From positions 52,010 through 91,337 of the forward strand of contig NVWO01000006.1 of the NCBI GenBank assembly GCA_002746255.1: 39,328 nt of DNA. The letters are read 5' to 3'. Numbering within the stretch: position 1 is the first letter of the stretch; each line of letters starts with the position of its first letter. This stretch comes from Rhodospirillaceae bacterium (GTDB lineage Bacteria; Pseudomonadota; Alphaproteobacteria; GCA-2746255). Position numbers and translations under genes: made by a program. A model generated the notes under the pieces. That model worked only from the letters and a program-made list of their open reading frames with translations, did not search any database and was not told the DNA's origin. Shown piece after piece: positions 1,410-8,235 of the stretch.

Positions 1410-2891
1410 TTAACGACTGTGTTTGGTGATGGCGTCCGGCGAACCGGCCGCGTTGCGGCTTGCTGCCTGAAAGGCGTCGATATGCTCAAAAATCTTCACA
1501 ATCGTGTCTTCCCCAAAATAGGGGTTGAGCAGAATCGCGCGCAACCATCGCCGACCACGGAACCGCGGAATCGAAAAAAAGGTGTCGTTCTCTTTCAGCA
1601 AAGAAACCTGCAACGCCTCGTTCCAGGCGTCCCATCCTTCAGAAGGCACCCATTGGGGCGTGCCGCGAAAACAAAGAACGTTGAGCTCCGGCCGGATGGC
1701 AAGCTCAAGAAAAGGCCGCGCGTCGATTTCTTGTACGAAGCGTTCCGTCAGACGGTAAGCCTCGTCGATAAGATGGGCATATCCTTGGCGACCAATATGC
1801 TGAAACGACAGCCAAAGCTTCAAAACATCCGGATAGCGGGTACCCTGAATGCTGATTTCACCAAGGTTCAGCATGTCATCCGGGTCCCGCATATAGGGCG
1901 CTTGAATGCGAAAGCTGTCCTGCAAGTGCCGAACGTCCCGAAACAGAGCCATGGCGCAGGTTTTCGAAACGTACAGCCATTTCTGCGGATTGAAGGAAAG
2001 TGAATCGGCGTGCTCGATCCCTTTTAAACGGCCACACTGCGTCGTTGAAAGGGCGAGTGCCCCACCAAAAACCGCGTCCACGTGGAACCAGAGTCCGTGC
2101 GCCTTGGCGATATCGTGAATGTCGGAAAGGGGATCGATGCTACCGACCACCGTGGTGCCGGCCGTCGCCACCACGCAAAACGGCGCTTGGCCTTCCCTCT
2201 TCGCCTGTCGGATTGCCCGCTCAAGATCGTCGGTATCCATTTTTGCGTCAGCCGTCATGGCAATGGGAATGACAGCTGACGTCCCAAGCCCCAGCAACAT
2301 GGCCGCTTTTTGAATCGACGTGTGCGCCGCCTCGGACGCGAACAGAACCGGTTGCCGTTCCAAGACGGCGACGCCCTTGCCATGGGCATCGAAAGCCAGA
2401 TTGCGTGCAACCGCCAATGCCTGAAGATTGGCCAGGCTGCCTCCGCCAAGCAACACCCCACCGGCATGCGTGCCAAGGCCGAAGAGCTCTGCAATCTCTT
2501 TCAGCAGCAACGGTTCCATGCGGGAAAAGATGGGTGACATTTCAACGCTCAGCATGTTGTTGTTCAGCGTCGAAGCGACAAAATCGGCAAGAACGGACAT
2601 CGTCGTCGGCATCGTGTCCATATGGCCGATATAGCCTGGATGCGCCGCGTTCATCGAACCTGCGACAATCATCCGTAGCGATTCCATTAAGCGTTCTTTC
2701 GGAGCAGGCATCTCCGGAATGGCGACCATTGCCGGCAAATCTGCCTTTTCCGGCAATGGCGAACGGCTAAGCGCATCCGTCGCATGGGAAAGCACCAGAT
2801 CCAGCACTTCTTGCGCCAAGGCATCGATTTCCGCACGGTTGTTACCATGGGGGTCAATGAAGGCAGAGCTGGGAAGCTTCAATCGATCCAA
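1410..2891 (-). CDS. Group II pyridoxal-phosphate-dependent amino acid decarboxylase
   Basis: Fold-type I PLP enzyme of the aromatic-amino-acid/glutamate/diaminobutyrate decarboxylase group (Pyridoxal_deC family), which releases CO2 from an amino acid to give an amine. With the TTG start at 2891 it has 493 residues, a normal length. Visible features are a glycine loop GGGSLAN (about 149-155), the cofactor-stacking His in AAHTS (about 190), HVDA with the cofactor-binding Asp (about 272), and SFNPQKW with the Schiff-base Lys (about 304). I chose the TTG because GGAGGG lies 6 bases before it. A longer in-frame TTG at 2948 would sit inside the probable promoter. The sequence after HVDA reads VFGG rather than the usual AYGG or AWGG. 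The substrate cannot be told from sequence. Confidence 0.88.
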
Positions 2892-2924
2892 AACGGACCC
2901 TCCATCCAAACGGATAAGCGGGGC

Positions 2925-2952
2925 GGAATATGCCCCTATGCACACCAATCAA
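2925..2952 (-). promoter_or_regulatory. Candidate promoter for the PLP decarboxylase gene
   Basis: Minus-strand TTGATT (2947-2952), a 16-base spacer and TATTCC (2925-2930). The predicted transcript starts about 27 bases before the TTG at 2891, which agrees with the Shine-Dalgarno-based choice of start. The -10 is a weak match. Confidence 0.33.
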
Positions 2953-3018
2953 CAAGCAGGAATTTTGCCGTGTCGAAGAAAAAAGCCAAGGATTTCTACC
3001 ATTTTTATTGGAAATAAA

Positions 3019-3047
3019 ATGACAGCCCTCGGCGCGACGCCTATTCT
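3019..3047 (+). promoter_or_regulatory. Candidate promoter for the PaaY-like gene
   Basis: ATGACA (3019-3024), a 17-base spacer and TATTCT (3042-3047). Transcription would start near 3054, just before the GGAGA ribosome binding site at 3066-3070. It lies back to back with the decarboxylase promoter in the same divergent gap. Confidence 0.4.
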
Positions 3048-3076
3048 TACCTGTAAAGGCAAACTGGAGAACGCCC

Positions 3077-3736
3077 TTGGCAACCCCCAGCCACGATCAA
3101 AGCGAGGACCAAAGGCACAATCCGCGACCGATTGTTTACAGCTTTGCGGGCCTTGTTCCCGTTGTCCATCCTGAAAGCTTCATCCATCCAACGGCCGTCC
3201 TGATCGGCGACGTTATCGTTGGGCGCGGCTGCTATATTGGACCGGGGGCCTCTTTACGTGGCGATTTCGGCCGCCTCACCATCGGCGATGGCGCAAATGT
3301 TCAAGACAATTGCGTCCTCCATTGTTTCCCAGGCAAAGACACCCTTATCGAAACGGACGGCCATATCGGCCATGGCGCCATCCTGCACGGATGCACCATT
3401 CGCAAAAATGCGCTTGTCGGAATGAGCGCCGTCATCATGGATGGTGCCGAAATCGGCGAAAGCAGCTTCGTTGCTGCCATGTCCTTCGTGCCATCGGCAT
3501 TTTGCGTGCCGCCGCGCACCCTTGTAGCGGGCATTCCTGCCAGAATTCGCCGTGAACTTACGGATGAAGACATTGCCTGGAAATGCCAGGGGACCAGGGA
3601 ATATCAAAACCTTGCCGTTCGCTCGCTTGCGACCTGCCGGGCCGTACCCGCCCTCTCCGCACCCGAACCCAATCGCCCGCGATTGCCGGAAACCGACACA
3701 AAACCGTTGCAGAAAGCCCGTCGTAAAAAAAGCTAG
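3077..3736 (+). CDS. PaaY/CaiE-type gamma-carbonic-anhydrase-like hexapeptide repeat protein
   Basis: Left-handed beta-helix protein of 219 residues built from hexapeptide repeats. The family includes gamma carbonic anhydrases, CaiE and PaaY, a thioesterase of phenylacetate catabolism. The metal site looks complete: H82 (in VLHCFPG) with H99 and H104 (HxxxxH in GHGAILHGC), plus the R61-G-D63 signature. The stretch from SLRGDFGRL to QGTREYQ closely resembles PaaY as I remember it, including a C-terminal helix region after the beta-helix. The start is a TTG with GGAGA 6 bases upstream. There is a basic, Pro-rich tail of about 40 residues. No other paa gene is in the window, so the role here is open: carbonic anhydrase, thioesterase or both. 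It runs convergently towards the diacylglycerol kinase gene with a 9-base gap. Confidence 0.85.
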   Translation: MATPSHDQSEDQRHNPRPIVYSFAGLVPVVHPESFIHPTAVLIGDVIVGRGCYIGPGASLRGDFGRLTIGDGANVQDNCVLHCFPGKDTLIETDGHIGHGAILHGCTIRKNALVGMSAVIMDGAEIGESSFVAAMSFVPSAFCVPPRTLVAGIPARIRRELTDEDIAWKCQGTREYQNLAVRSLATCRAVPALSAPEPNRPRLPETDTKPLQKARRKKS

Positions 3737-3745
3737 CGTCGGACG

Positions 3746-4648
3746 TCAGGCCGGCACCAACAGATCGATCGTTTTTTCAGAAATTCGAATCTCCAACGGC
3801 AAACAGGCGATCAAATCGCCATCGCCTTGCACCGGGTCCCCCGGGGGGCCTTCAATCAACAGGCGATCCGTTTCAACAAGCGTCACATTTGCCATCCCGG
3901 AAATTTTTCCCCGTAAAATTCCCAGAATATTCAGCATGGTTGTCCAGGGTGCGCCGCCTTTAAACAGACAGACTTGAAAACTTGCCCGATCAAGGCGCGC
4001 ATCCGGCGTGCAAATATACCGCCCACCGTAGAAATGCCCCTTTCCAATCACGACGGACGCAGCAGAAAATGTGCGCCCTGCCAATGTCACCTGATAGCGA
4101 TTGGCGGTGTGACAAAACAGCTCTCGAAGAGTCGCCCAAGCATAAGCCCCCTTGCCGATCCATTTTTTCAACCTTGGGGAAATATTTTTCACCACATGGG
4201 CATCAAGCCCAACCCCTGCCATCATCGTAAAAAGACGCCCATTCGCCAGGCCAAGATGGCAGTGAAGCCTGTCCCCTTCCGCGATGACGGCGGCGATGGC
4301 CCGGGGGCGAAAAGGAAGAAGAATTTCAGCGGCCAGCACATTTGCCGTGCCAAGGGGAATGATGCCAAGGGGCAGGTTTCGGCCAAGCAGCCCGTTCACG
4401 ACCTCACTGACGGTGCCATCCCCACCCGCGGCAACAACGGCATCCAAGAGGTCCCGGGAGGCCTCCCGGGCAAAGGCCTCGGCATCGCCTCGCCGGGTCG
4501 TCGCCTTGACGGTAAGCTCACAGCCCAGACGTTCCAATTCGCCCTTAACCTTTAGAAAACGGCCCCGGCAACACCGCCCTGCCGTTGGATTGTGGATAAT
4601 CAGAATCCGTTTTGGGCGCTGCCCTTCAAGGGGGTGAGACTTGACCAT
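3746..4648 (-). CDS. Diacylglycerol kinase family lipid kinase (YegS/DgkB-like)
   Basis: Cytosolic lipid kinase of the DAGK catalytic family that phosphorylates diacylglycerol or a similar lipid using ATP. It has 300 residues, the usual family size. Key features are the N-terminal nucleotide-binding segment IIHNPTAG and the GGDGT motif at residues 75-79, followed by PLGTANVLA, typical of the YegS/BmrU/DgkB group. It starts 21 bases after the stop of the LtaS-like gene, so the two are probably cotranscribed. That context fits recycling of the diacylglycerol left when phosphoglycerol is taken from phosphatidylglycerol. The substrate is inferred. Sphingosine-kinase-like and PG-kinase activities also exist in this family. 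Confidence 0.85.
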   Translation of the reverse strand: MVKSHPLEGQRPKRILIIHNPTAGRCCRGRFLKVKGELERLGCELTVKATTRRGDAEAFAREASRDLLDAVVAAGGDGTVSEVVNGLLGRNLPLGIIPLGTANVLAAEILLPFRPRAIAAVIAEGDRLHCHLGLANGRLFTMMAGVGLDAHVVKNISPRLKKWIGKGAYAWATLRELFCHTANRYQVTLAGRTFSAASVVIGKGHFYGGRYICTPDARLDRASFQVCLFKGGAPWTTMLNILGILRGKISGMANVTLVETDRLLIEGPPGDPVQGDGDLIACLPLEIRISEKTIDLLVPA

Positions 4649-4669
4649 GAATCCCGTCAGCGAAGGTCG

Positions 4670-6583
4670 TTAGCGATCATCCGGATCGTCAACTTTCTTC
4701 AATTGGCCTGAATGGAAATAGAGGCTTGCGGATTGATACCAGGAGATTGCCTCTTTGATTAACTGTGGGTCCGTCAGGGAACCGGGGCCGCCCTGGTTTG
4801 CGGGCAAACCATCGGTGACGGTCGGATCCCGGTTGACGTCCAGCACAACCAATCGACTGTCTTTCAGATAACCAAGTTTTTGATAGGTGCTGATAAAGGC
4901 CCGTTCGCGGCCTGTCTCTAGGCTAAAGATGTCATATCCGAAAAAGCGGCTTGAATAACTCAGCCCCAGCCACCCCAAAAGTGTTGGCCCAATATCAATC
5001 TGGCTCATCAGCCGCCCCATCACGCCGGGTTCGATCAACCCGGGCGCATACCAGATCATGGGAATATGGTAACGCGATGGTGGAAGGTCGGTCTTGCCCG
5101 CCGCCTTCGCCGTATGATCGGCAACAATAATGAACAGGGTGTTGTCGAACCATGGCTTTTCGGCGCTACGTCGAATGAAATCACCAATCGCCCAGTCCGT
5201 ATATTTGACGACGCCTTCCCGATTTCCCTGCGGCAAGTCGATACGGTTTTCCGGAAACGTATAGGGACGATGGTTGGAGGTTGTCATGACGTGGGCGAAG
5301 AAACGATTGCCCTGCGCGTGTTCGCGATCCAGCTTGGCAAGGGTCAGTGAAAAAAGATCTTCGTCGGCAATGCCCCAGATGTTTTCGGCGTGAATGGTCA
5401 CGCCTTCCTTCTCCGCATCGGTGCGGTCAATAACGGTGTAGCCATTGCCTCCAAAATAGGCATTCATGTTGTCAAAGAAGCCATAACCGCCATAAATCCA
5501 GTAGGGTATCCAGCCACCCTCTTTCATTTCCGAACCAAGAGTCGCCAGCCCTCCATTTTTCGGGCGCCGGACAATGCTTTGGCCTGGAATCGGCGGCGTC
5601 CCGACAGACAAGGCCTCCAATCCACGAACGGTTCGGGTGCCGGTTGCATACAGATTGGTGAACAACAGCCCCTGACCGGCCAGCTTGTCCAGTTCCGGCG
5701 TGAGGCCAAGTTTGTTTCCAAAAATGCCAAGGTATTCCGCCGAAAGGCTCTCAACAAAAACAAGAACAACGTTTACGTTTTTTGCGGGACTATGGGCCTG
5801 AACGTTTCGTTCAATCCCTTGAGCCTCAGTGAAGTTTGAACTCGGCTGATGGACGAGTGCGCGAATCTCTGAATTCAGATCGGCCGCCTTCAGCATCGGA
5901 TAATATTTGTCATAGTCCAGCTGGTTGTTCCGGTAGGCATGGGCAAACGCGTAAAGGCCATTCGTCGACAGCTGCTGGACATAGGCGTTTGATTTTGTAT
6001 CGGCAATCCCCTGATCCACAACGCCAACGCCCAGCGCAATGGCAACCCCCACGACAACGGGACGGCGCCAGCGAACCATCCGGGTTGACCGGGCATCGTT
6101 TCTGCCACGCGGCCAACTGAACCAGGAAACGACCGAACAAATGCCAAGGATGATCGCCATCCATAACGCGATCGGATAACTCTCGCGTATATTTCCAATT
6201 ACCTCATGGGTATAGACGAGGTAATCGACTGCGATGAAGTCAAACCTGCCCCCGAACTCTTCCCAAAACGCGAACTCGGCAGCGGCGACGACGATAAAGA
6301 GGGCTAGGAACAGAGTCCCCCAAACGGCAGACCAGCGATTTTCCCACCTACCAAATGTGTGATGCTCGGAAAACTCGGGCAAAAACGCGTCATACACCGC
6401 CCACGCAAACAGAAACCACGGCAGAACGGCGAGGTCAAAAATAAGACCAACGCCCATAAAACGCGCCCATTCGGAAGGGGCAAACCCTTCGCCAGTGAAG
6501 AAGGCAAGACCGACCCGTGTTAAAATGGAAACGATCAAAAAACTTGCGGCGATCCAAGCCAGTCGCCTTGCGCCTCGGGTCAT
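4670..6583 (-). CDS. LtaS-like phosphoglycerol transferase/sulfatase-family membrane protein
   Basis: Protein of 637 residues in the alkaline-phosphatase/sulfatase superfamily. About five hydrophobic segments occupy the first 195 residues (near 10-30, 43-65, 88-106, 136-155 and 175-192), followed by a large periplasmic catalytic domain from about 268. Likely metal and active-site residues are E278 (VESLSAEYLG), T318 as the nucleophile (GTRTVRG), H438 (TSNHRPY) and D489-H490 (ADH). This matches LTA synthase and the OpgB-like enzymes, which transfer glycerol phosphate from phosphatidylglycerol and release diacylglycerol. In a Gram-negative the acceptor could be a periplasmic glucan, another polysaccharide or a protein. 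GAGG precedes the ATG. The 136-base gap before it holds no convincing promoter. It is followed by a diacylglycerol kinase. Confidence 0.85.
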   Translation of the reverse strand: MTRGARRLAWIAASFLIVSILTRVGLAFFTGEGFAPSEWARFMGVGLIFDLAVLPWFLFAWAVYDAFLPEFSEHHTFGRWENRWSAVWGTLFLALFIVVAAAEFAFWEEFGGRFDFIAVDYLVYTHEVIGNIRESYPIALWMAIILGICSVVSWFSWPRGRNDARSTRMVRWRRPVVVGVAIALGVGVVDQGIADTKSNAYVQQLSTNGLYAFAHAYRNNQLDYDKYYPMLKAADLNSEIRALVHQPSSNFTEAQGIERNVQAHSPAKNVNVVLVFVESLSAEYLGIFGNKLGLTPELDKLAGQGLLFTNLYATGTRTVRGLEALSVGTPPIPGQSIVRRPKNGGLATLGSEMKEGGWIPYWIYGGYGFFDNMNAYFGGNGYTVIDRTDAEKEGVTIHAENIWGIADEDLFSLTLAKLDREHAQGNRFFAHVMTTSNHRPYTFPENRIDLPQGNREGVVKYTDWAIGDFIRRSAEKPWFDNTLFIIVADHTAKAAGKTDLPPSRYHIPMIWYAPGLIEPGVMGRLMSQIDIGPTLLGWLGLSYSSRFFGYDIFSLETGRERAFISTYQKLGYLKDSRLVVLDVNRDPTVTDGLPANQGGPGSLTDPQLIKEAISWYQSASLYFHSGQLKKVDDPDDR

Positions 6584-6719
6584 ACCCGCCTCATTTCATT
6601 CATTTTTTTCATATCCACCTGGAATATCGGGAACGGATTGCTCTACAGCATATGTAACGGAAAGCAAAGAAAACAAGCCTTCGAATATGTGAGAGGCCGC
6701 CAGCGCCCATTCCTTCTTC

Positions 6720-7769
6720 TTATTTCTTCATTTCCGGGCGCAGTGGTTTGCCCGCCGCCTGTTTTTGTTCGATTTCCTCAACCGTCTTTTCAAGCGCGAG
6801 GAAACGTTCCGGCGTCGAGGGATGGGATGCCAGGAAACCGCCCTCTCGAATGGCTTGCGGATGCGCCGCCGCCATCCGCCGCCAGAAATACGCCGCCCCT
6901 TTAATTTCCAGCCCGCTCAACGCCATGATGTAGAGACCAACGTAATCCGCCTCCGCCTCAAAGGCCTGGCTATGCATCCTCCCCGCCAGACGGGAAAAGG
7001 TTCCCTGCGTGTTGACCCCACCGACCGATGCCAGAATATCCGCAAGGAGTCCCAGCATCGCGTTGCCCTGCTTTGCGGAAATATGTTCCATCGCGTTATG
7101 GGCAAGCTCATGGGCAATGACCGTTCCCAATTCGGTGTCGCTCTCCGCAAACCGAACCATGCCGCGCATGATGACAATGCGTTCTCCGTCGGCAAACGCA
7201 TTTAGGGAATCATCACTGGCCAGCAGGACCGGGTAATCGCATCCCATTTCCGGCATAAGCGTCAGGCGTATTTCTTCCTCGCCGCGACGAACATCAAGGG
7301 TGAAGCTTTGTTTCCCTTTTGCGGCTTCGCCATAAAGCTTGGCAAAACCCTTGGGAGCGCCCTTGCCTTTCGGCACCGGCTTGTTATTGATCCGCAGCAG
7401 CAGATCGTGCTCGCGAAGGCCGGCCTTATCGGCAGGCGTCCCCGGAGCAACCCAAGCAATCTGCAATTGCTCGCTATCGCCAAAGACCGTCTTGGCGGCG
7501 CTGTGAAACTCTTCCGGAAAGTGATAAATGCTTGAAACACTTGCCCCGACCAGGGGAGTGACCCTGTCCCCACAAAAGGACAACCCGCCAACAAGAATGG
7601 GATAGGAAATCACAAACAAACGTCGATTGTTTTTCCGGGATTCCGTAAGCGCAATTTCGCGCTGCTTCTCCGCTTCCTTCGCAGCAAGAACCGGGTCGAT
7701 CACGACGCGTTGCGTCGTCGGCGCACAGGCCCCCAGAAGAAAAAACAGCACCGCAAAGAGGGAAATCAT
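6720..7769 (-). CDS. M48 family metallopeptidase lipoprotein with PDZ-like domain
   Basis: Predicted lipoprotein of 349 residues. The signal peptide starts MISLFAVLFFLLGAC, with lipobox Cys15. A PDZ-like segment follows at about 100-170, with QIAWVAPGTPADKAGL resembling a carboxylate-binding PDZ core. The M48 zinc-protease domain has HELAH (H220, E221, H224) and a distal EAEAD (271-275) that supplies the third ligand. BepA/LoiP-type M48 lipoproteins handle misfolded outer-membrane proteins, so an envelope quality-control role is likely. I chose ATG 7769 because it gives a clean signal peptide. GTG at 7775 is an alternative closer to AGGA, and a longer frame to 7880 would run into the preceding DUF1489 gene. 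Confidence 0.87.
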   Translation of the reverse strand: MISLFAVLFFLLGACAPTTQRVVIDPVLAAKEAEKQREIALTESRKNNRRLFVISYPILVGGLSFCGDRVTPLVGASVSSIYHFPEEFHSAAKTVFGDSEQLQIAWVAPGTPADKAGLREHDLLLRINNKPVPKGKGAPKGFAKLYGEAAKGKQSFTLDVRRGEEEIRLTLMPEMGCDYPVLLASDDSLNAFADGERIVIMRGMVRFAESDTELGTVIAHELAHNAMEHISAKQGNAMLGLLADILASVGGVNTQGTFSRLAGRMHSQAFEAEADYVGLYIMALSGLEIKGAAYFWRRMAAAHPQAIREGGFLASHPSTPERFLALEKTVEEIEQKQAAGKPLRPEMKK

Positions 7770-7815
7770 GCGCACGGCCAGTGGAGTCCTTTCCTGTTTT
7801 TTGGCAAAACCCGGT

Positions 7816-8235
7816 TCAAAGCAGTCCAAGTTCGCGAAGTTCTGCCGCCATCTCTGGCGGCAGGCTCGCGTCCATATCACCTGAGCTTAAGTCTCCAGGC
7901 GCGCCCGCCTCTTCGAGGTAGCGCCATCCCTGCTGCGGCTTTCTGGGAATAAGCTGGGTCTTCACCAGTTCCCGGTCAAGGCGAATTTCGCAATAGCTGC
8001 GCCCTTCCGCATCCGTTTTCCGGTCGAGGCCGAGAATGCGCTGGCGGGCGCGGATATAGCCTTTGATGACCCAATAGATGGAGCCACCATCAAGGATAGC
8101 ATCGGCACGCCGTGGCATATTGCGCGTACGCACATGAAGCGGCTTCCCATCTACAGGCATGCGCCTGCTCTGAACAGCGGCGAGGTGGTCGATGCTCTTC
8201 ACACCGACCGCCATCTTCACAAGATGAAGGGTCAT
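7816..8235 (-). CDS. DUF1489 family protein
   Basis: Small soluble protein of 139 residues that I recognise as DUF1489, a family found mainly in alphaproteobacteria and with no established function. The start MTLHLVKMAVGVKSID matches the usual family N terminus. The middle carries RTRNMPRRADAILDGGSIYWVIKG, and the C terminus has QQGWRYL. It contains no signal peptide or membrane segment. The M48 lipoprotein gene follows after 46 bases, so they may be cotranscribed, although DUF1489 is not known to work with proteases. Confidence 0.82.
   Translation of the reverse strand: MTLHLVKMAVGVKSIDHLAAVQSRRMPVDGKPLHVRTRNMPRRADAILDGGSIYWVIKGYIRARQRILGLDRKTDAEGRSYCEIRLDRELVKTQLIPRKPQQGWRYLEEAGAPGDLSSGDMDASLPPEMAAELRELGLL

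Follow-up and report, generated by a model that had tools for sequence, protein, structure and literature searches.

A transferase–lipid kinase gene pair as a probable envelope-decoration and lipid-recycling unit in an alphaproteobacterium

A gene for an LtaS/OpgB-fold transferase and, downstream of it, a gene for a DAGK_cat/YegS-type lipid kinase probably form a two-gene unit for envelope decoration and lipid recycling; its reaction, donor, kinase substrate and acceptor are what we infer from the comparisons below. The two proteins very probably form a functional unit, and the recycling of diacylglycerol (DAG) by the pair is well supported. The pairing of such a transferase with a DAG kinase is already known; what is new is a soluble DAGK_cat kinase in the place where other bacteria use DgkA.

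The pair lies in a 39,328-nucleotide stretch of DNA, hereafter the window, from a 2.1 Mb alphaproteobacterial genome that is 99.8% complete (Table 1). Both open reading frames and the short gap between them are as the sequence-only reading, an earlier annotation of this DNA, had described, and the close same-strand spacing is consistent with transcription of both genes on one transcript. A promoter scan found no sigma-70-like promoter, against two expected in shuffles. The transferase matches PF00884 (Sulfatase) at 4.4e-37 in Pfam, and the kinase matches DAGK_cat (PF00781) at 3.2e-27 and YegS_C (PF19279) at 3.7e-13. Family searches of the source genome recovered PF00884 in the transferase only and PF00781 in the kinase only.

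Table 1. Features of the transferase–kinase locus, in window coordinates
Feature	Position	Strand	Details
Two-gene indel	3737-6719	.	2983 bases between paaY and M48 stop codons
DAGK_cat/YegS-type lipid kinase gene	3746-4648	-	300 aa; basis PF00781 + PF19279
Intergenic gap, transferase/kinase	4649-4669	-	exactly 21 bases, same strand
LtaS/OpgB-fold transferase gene	4670-6583	-	637 aa; basis PF00884

Hydropathy analysis places five transmembrane helices at the N-terminus of the transferase. Searching its AlphaFold2 model (pLDDT 88, built on 43 homologues) with Foldseek returned VP1736 (PDB 3lxq) as the closest structure, followed by LtaP, PbgA/YejM and LtaS. With a TM score of 0.91 over the target and 390 bits by profile, 3lxq is the closest solved relative in both sequence and fold. 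Alignment with solved LtaS predicts an active site composed of E278, T318 (the nucleophile), H438, D489 and H490. All five residues are invariant across the 43 homologues, and E278, T318, D489 and H490 line up with catalytic and metal residues of LtaS and OpgB. The transferase thus shares with the LtaS/OpgB group the five-helix transmembrane bundle, the extracytoplasmic sulfatase/alkaline-phosphatase fold, the catalytic threonine and the metal-binding E/D/H residues, whereas the glycerol-phosphate contacts of LtaS are not conserved in it and its scores do not reach the equivalog cut-offs for LtaS and OpgB.

The LtaS segment HGD..FWNR, which we take to be its glycerol-phosphate contact residues, reads YGG..FDNM in the VP1736-type family, with the conserved histidine (H438) kept. 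Phosphoglycerol transferases account for all of the best curated-family matches, but each score lies far short of its cut-off (NCBIfam scores: PRK12363, 48.2 against 572; LtaS, 37.9 against 970; OpgB, 33.4 against 574). Given this distance from the LtaS and OpgB cut-offs, the transferase belongs, by its sequence, to the VP1736-type branch, and it plausibly works like OpgB/LtaS. Publications on LtaS homologues at work in Gram-negative bacteria were also sought, with nothing directly relevant found. The fold families that the sequence-only reading had assigned to both proteins are borne out by the Pfam, profile and fold matches. The phosphoglycerol donor that it named stands as an assumption only, given the altered contact segment, and the self-contained pathway that it suggested is likewise conjectural, as the analysis turned up no gene for an acceptor.

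The kinase scores 127.5 bits against TIGR00147 (YegS/Rv2252/BmrU lipid kinases), above the curated cut-off of 118.65, and carries a GGDGT motif at residues 75-79. Its structure model (pLDDT 93) is closest in fold to DgkB, SphK1 and YegS, and it is 27% identical in sequence to YegS. Both the family score and the DgkB-like fold agree with its earlier description as a soluble DgkB/YegS-type enzyme. Two motifs differ. In place of the GT.ND of DgkB and YegS, the kinase has GTANVL. It also lacks the 'DG' Asp of DgkB, BmrU and YegS, which would follow the PDA.LD segment; the kinase reads PDARLDRA here. Since this Asp is missing, DAG activity is not assured. The same residue is absent throughout an alphaproteobacterial GTANVL clade of DAGK_cat proteins (L018-L034 and the window kinase), for which we know of no biochemical characterisation. 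Judging by its pairing with the transferase and its replacement by DgkA elsewhere, the kinase is probably a soluble diacylglycerol kinase. It is the sole candidate for such an enzyme in the source genome, where a search for DgkA was negative and no further candidate was found.

Comparison with the other three genomes in the genus (L151, L152 and L153) reveals that the flanking genes are syntenic in all of them, and that the M48 protease gene directly adjoins paaY with no trace of transferase or kinase (spacing of 32 and 14 bases where measured). As the site is empty in all three congeners, the transferase and kinase genes constitute a single clean two-gene indel. Neither DAGK_cat nor DgkA was found in the three congener genomes. 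The simplest reading is one gain of the pair in the window's lineage, because the nearest congener (G003) also lacks it; independent losses in the congeners are conceivable as well. In base composition the two-gene cassette does not stand out clearly from the DNA around it, so the gain is read solely from presence and absence. The neighbouring gene at 6720-7880 of the window, kept in all congeners, encodes an M48 metalloprotease that also carries a PDZ domain, a combination that stands beside the architecture usual for BepA/LoiP.

In a second alphaproteobacterium (L048), the same kinase gene lies directly downstream of the transferase gene between different flanks, and the two kinases are sisters in the tree with support of 100/100. 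The transferase tree places both transferases inside an eight-row group at 86/81; it does not by itself prove that they form one clade. DgkA is an integral-membrane diacylglycerol kinase that is non-homologous to the DAGK_cat kinase. Its gene adjoins the transferase gene on the same strand in L059, L095 and L136, and lies next to it in divergent orientation in L123. Altogether, kinase adjacency occurs at 6 of about 96 transferase loci, only two of which have the DAGK_cat/YegS type; at some 90% of the homologous loci the transferase gene stands without a kinase gene beside it, and no DAG kinase of either family was seen in the other loci within the stretches examined. The relatives were gathered by scanning the GTDB genome collection, which yielded 148; the best 80 were kept. 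The conservation that the sequence-only reading had proposed to check holds in part: the pair recurs in L048 but is rare. Uniqueness to one genome, which that reading had named as counting against it, is contradicted by L048 and by the lineages in which DgkA replaces the kinase.

No gene neighbour that might hint at the acceptor recurs across 16 close transferase loci. In L060 (6001-9511), a PAP2 gene comes after the transferase gene, and after it a gene for an MscS-type channel, an order that echoes the mcr-1-pap2 cassette; the PAP2 protein is related to lipid A phosphatases and to the PAP2 near mcr-1. Downstream of the second pair (L048, 8957-12910) lies a gene for a 1317-aa protein with alpha/beta hydrolase and AMP-binding acyl-activating domains. 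Transferase relatives of 45-46% identity occur in L072 (Pedobacter), L080 (a Planctomycetia MAG) and L087 (an Anaeromyxobacter MAG), records labelled Bacteroidota, Planctomycetota and Myxococcota, which suggests either wide horizontal spread or mislabelled bins. A record titled as a Klebsiella pneumoniae MAG (L125) holds a homologue of about 42% identity that lies near betaproteobacterial ones, and is probably a mislabelled bin.

Across 289 alphaproteobacterial genomes, the transferase was found in 16, DAGK_cat above cut-off in 133 and DgkA in 39. One or other kinase is present in all 16 transferase-positive genomes (DAGK_cat only in 11, DgkA only in 3, both in 2), compared with 163 of the 289 overall (hypergeometric 7e-5, phylogeny ignored). 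For genomes of at most 2.5 Mb the corresponding figures are 6/6 and 8/30 (p=0.0015, phylogeny ignored); this baseline is drawn from genomes with listed sizes. Genome size is accounted for only in part. With phylogeny left out of both tests and the small-genome baseline tied to listed sizes, we treat co-occurrence as supporting evidence only.

We propose that the five-helix transferase would strip a glycerophospholipid of its phospho-head group, by way of a threonine intermediate at its metal site. The head group would most likely be glycerol phosphate, with phosphatidylglycerol as donor, and would be passed to an acceptor in the periplasm or outer membrane other than the OpgGH glucan or the NdvB cyclic glucan. 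Diacylglycerol would be left in the inner membrane, where the soluble kinase could phosphorylate it to phosphatidic acid for return to phospholipid synthesis. A transferase that releases DAG would best account for the two unrelated DAG kinases recruited next to this one family. The sequence-only reading had suggested a search for periplasmic glucan genes. Family searches of the source genome found neither OpgG (PF04349) nor an NdvB-type GH94 (PF17167), in keeping with an acceptor outside the known periplasmic glucans. Serine palmitoyltransferase was likewise not recognisable, the only two alpha-oxoamine synthases being ALAS and a BioF-like protein. With OpgG, NdvB-type GH94 and DgkA all absent and no serine palmitoyltransferase recognised, the known glucan acceptors (OPG, cyclic glucan) and a ceramide kinase are both unlikely. 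LPS or another surface glycan is a possible acceptor. More tentatively, the pair could be a portable unit that places glycerol phosphate on an undescribed, non-glucan alphaproteobacterial acceptor and brings its own soluble DAG kinase to a host otherwise without one.

Three other explanations of the locus deserve weighing. The recycling unit might draw on phosphatidylethanolamine, the transferase then adding phosphoethanolamine to lipid A, core or another glycan, comparable to mcr-3-dgkA. The DgkA neighbours (L136, L059, L095 and L123) and the PAP2 gene of L060 do mirror mcr neighbourhoods, and the LtaS glycerol-phosphate contacts are not conserved. We nevertheless regard this donor as unlikely: the hhalign probability is 99.3% for E. 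coli OpgB but a mere 8% for EptA (E 0.0043), the best curated matches are all to phosphoglycerol transferases, if far below cut-off, and no EptA/MCR fold appears among the 50 best structural matches of the model. An EptA-type identity of the transferase was set aside on these profile and fold comparisons. It is quite unlikely, too, that the kinase acts on another lipid, either phosphatidylglycerol as YegS does or a sphingoid or ceramide as CpgB does, with an indirect coupling to the transferase. Such a role would agree with the two places, 'DG' Asp and GT.ND motif, where the kinase departs from DgkB, with the identity to YegS and with the closeness of SphK1 in fold, whereas the unrelated, DAG-directed DgkA in the same position in other lineages speaks against it, as does the lack of a recognisable serine palmitoyltransferase in the source genome, on which a CpgB-like ceramide kinase was set aside.

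Finally, the two genes might be chance neighbours, independently useful to the envelope and gained together with no functional link. Most transferase homologues indeed lack an adjacent kinase, and there is no conserved neighbourhood. Such a coincidence is nonetheless very improbable, given the recurrence in L048 between other flanks, the convergent pairing with DgkA, the presence of a DAG kinase in all surveyed genomes that have the transferase, and six adjacencies in about 96 loci where about 0.1 would be expected (rough Poisson estimate for 2,500-3,500 assumed genes). The clean indel relative to three congeners, the L048 pair and the non-homologous DgkA in four lineages take the pairing beyond chance, and they support the functional coupling and DAG-recycling logic that the sequence-only reading had put forward.

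A functional unit of transferase and DAG kinase extends a known principle and creates none anew. Two non-homologous DAG kinases beside VP1736-type transferases provide comparative-genomic, annotation-independent evidence that these enzymes release diacylglycerol, and the pair offers a candidate function for the alphaproteobacterial GTANVL lipid kinase clade. If the proposed unit is real, it would point to an envelope component that bears phosphoglycerol, or a similar modification, in bacteria without known periplasmic glucan genes; if it is also portable in the sense outlined above, the GTANVL clade would consist of genuine diacylglycerol kinases able to replace DgkA.

Among known systems, the closest solved relative of the transferase is VP1736 of Vibrio parahaemolyticus, whose PDB record describes it as uncharacterised. 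The Gram-positive LtaS/LtaP and DgkB enzymes share the transferase fold and catalytic residues and the DgkB-type kinase fold. However, the contact segment differs, there is no sign of polymer synthesis in the window pair, the kinase lacks the 'DG' Asp of DgkB, and the pair scores below the LtaS and DgkB curated cut-offs. The E. coli OpgB (MdoB)/DgkA system likewise couples a transferase of the OpgB fold, matched here by hhalign, to a kinase that recycles its DAG product, and there a mutation in mdoB was recovered that suppresses the build-up of DAG in a dgkA mutant (PMC8027125). In E. coli K-12, opgB and dgkA are not neighbours and the kinase, DgkA, is of another family, whereas the source genome of our pair lacks OpgG. 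The overall arrangement is also reminiscent of loci in which a DAG kinase or PAP2 gene lies beside a DAG-releasing envelope transferase gene, namely the dgkA-eptA-mdoB operon of V. vulnificus (PMC10433830), the mcr-3-dgkA cassette (PMC7559476, PMC10285318) and the mcr-1-pap2 cassette (PMC10285318). The kinase of these systems, unlike that of the window, is DgkA. Their mcr/eptA transferases handle phosphoethanolamine and belong to another branch.
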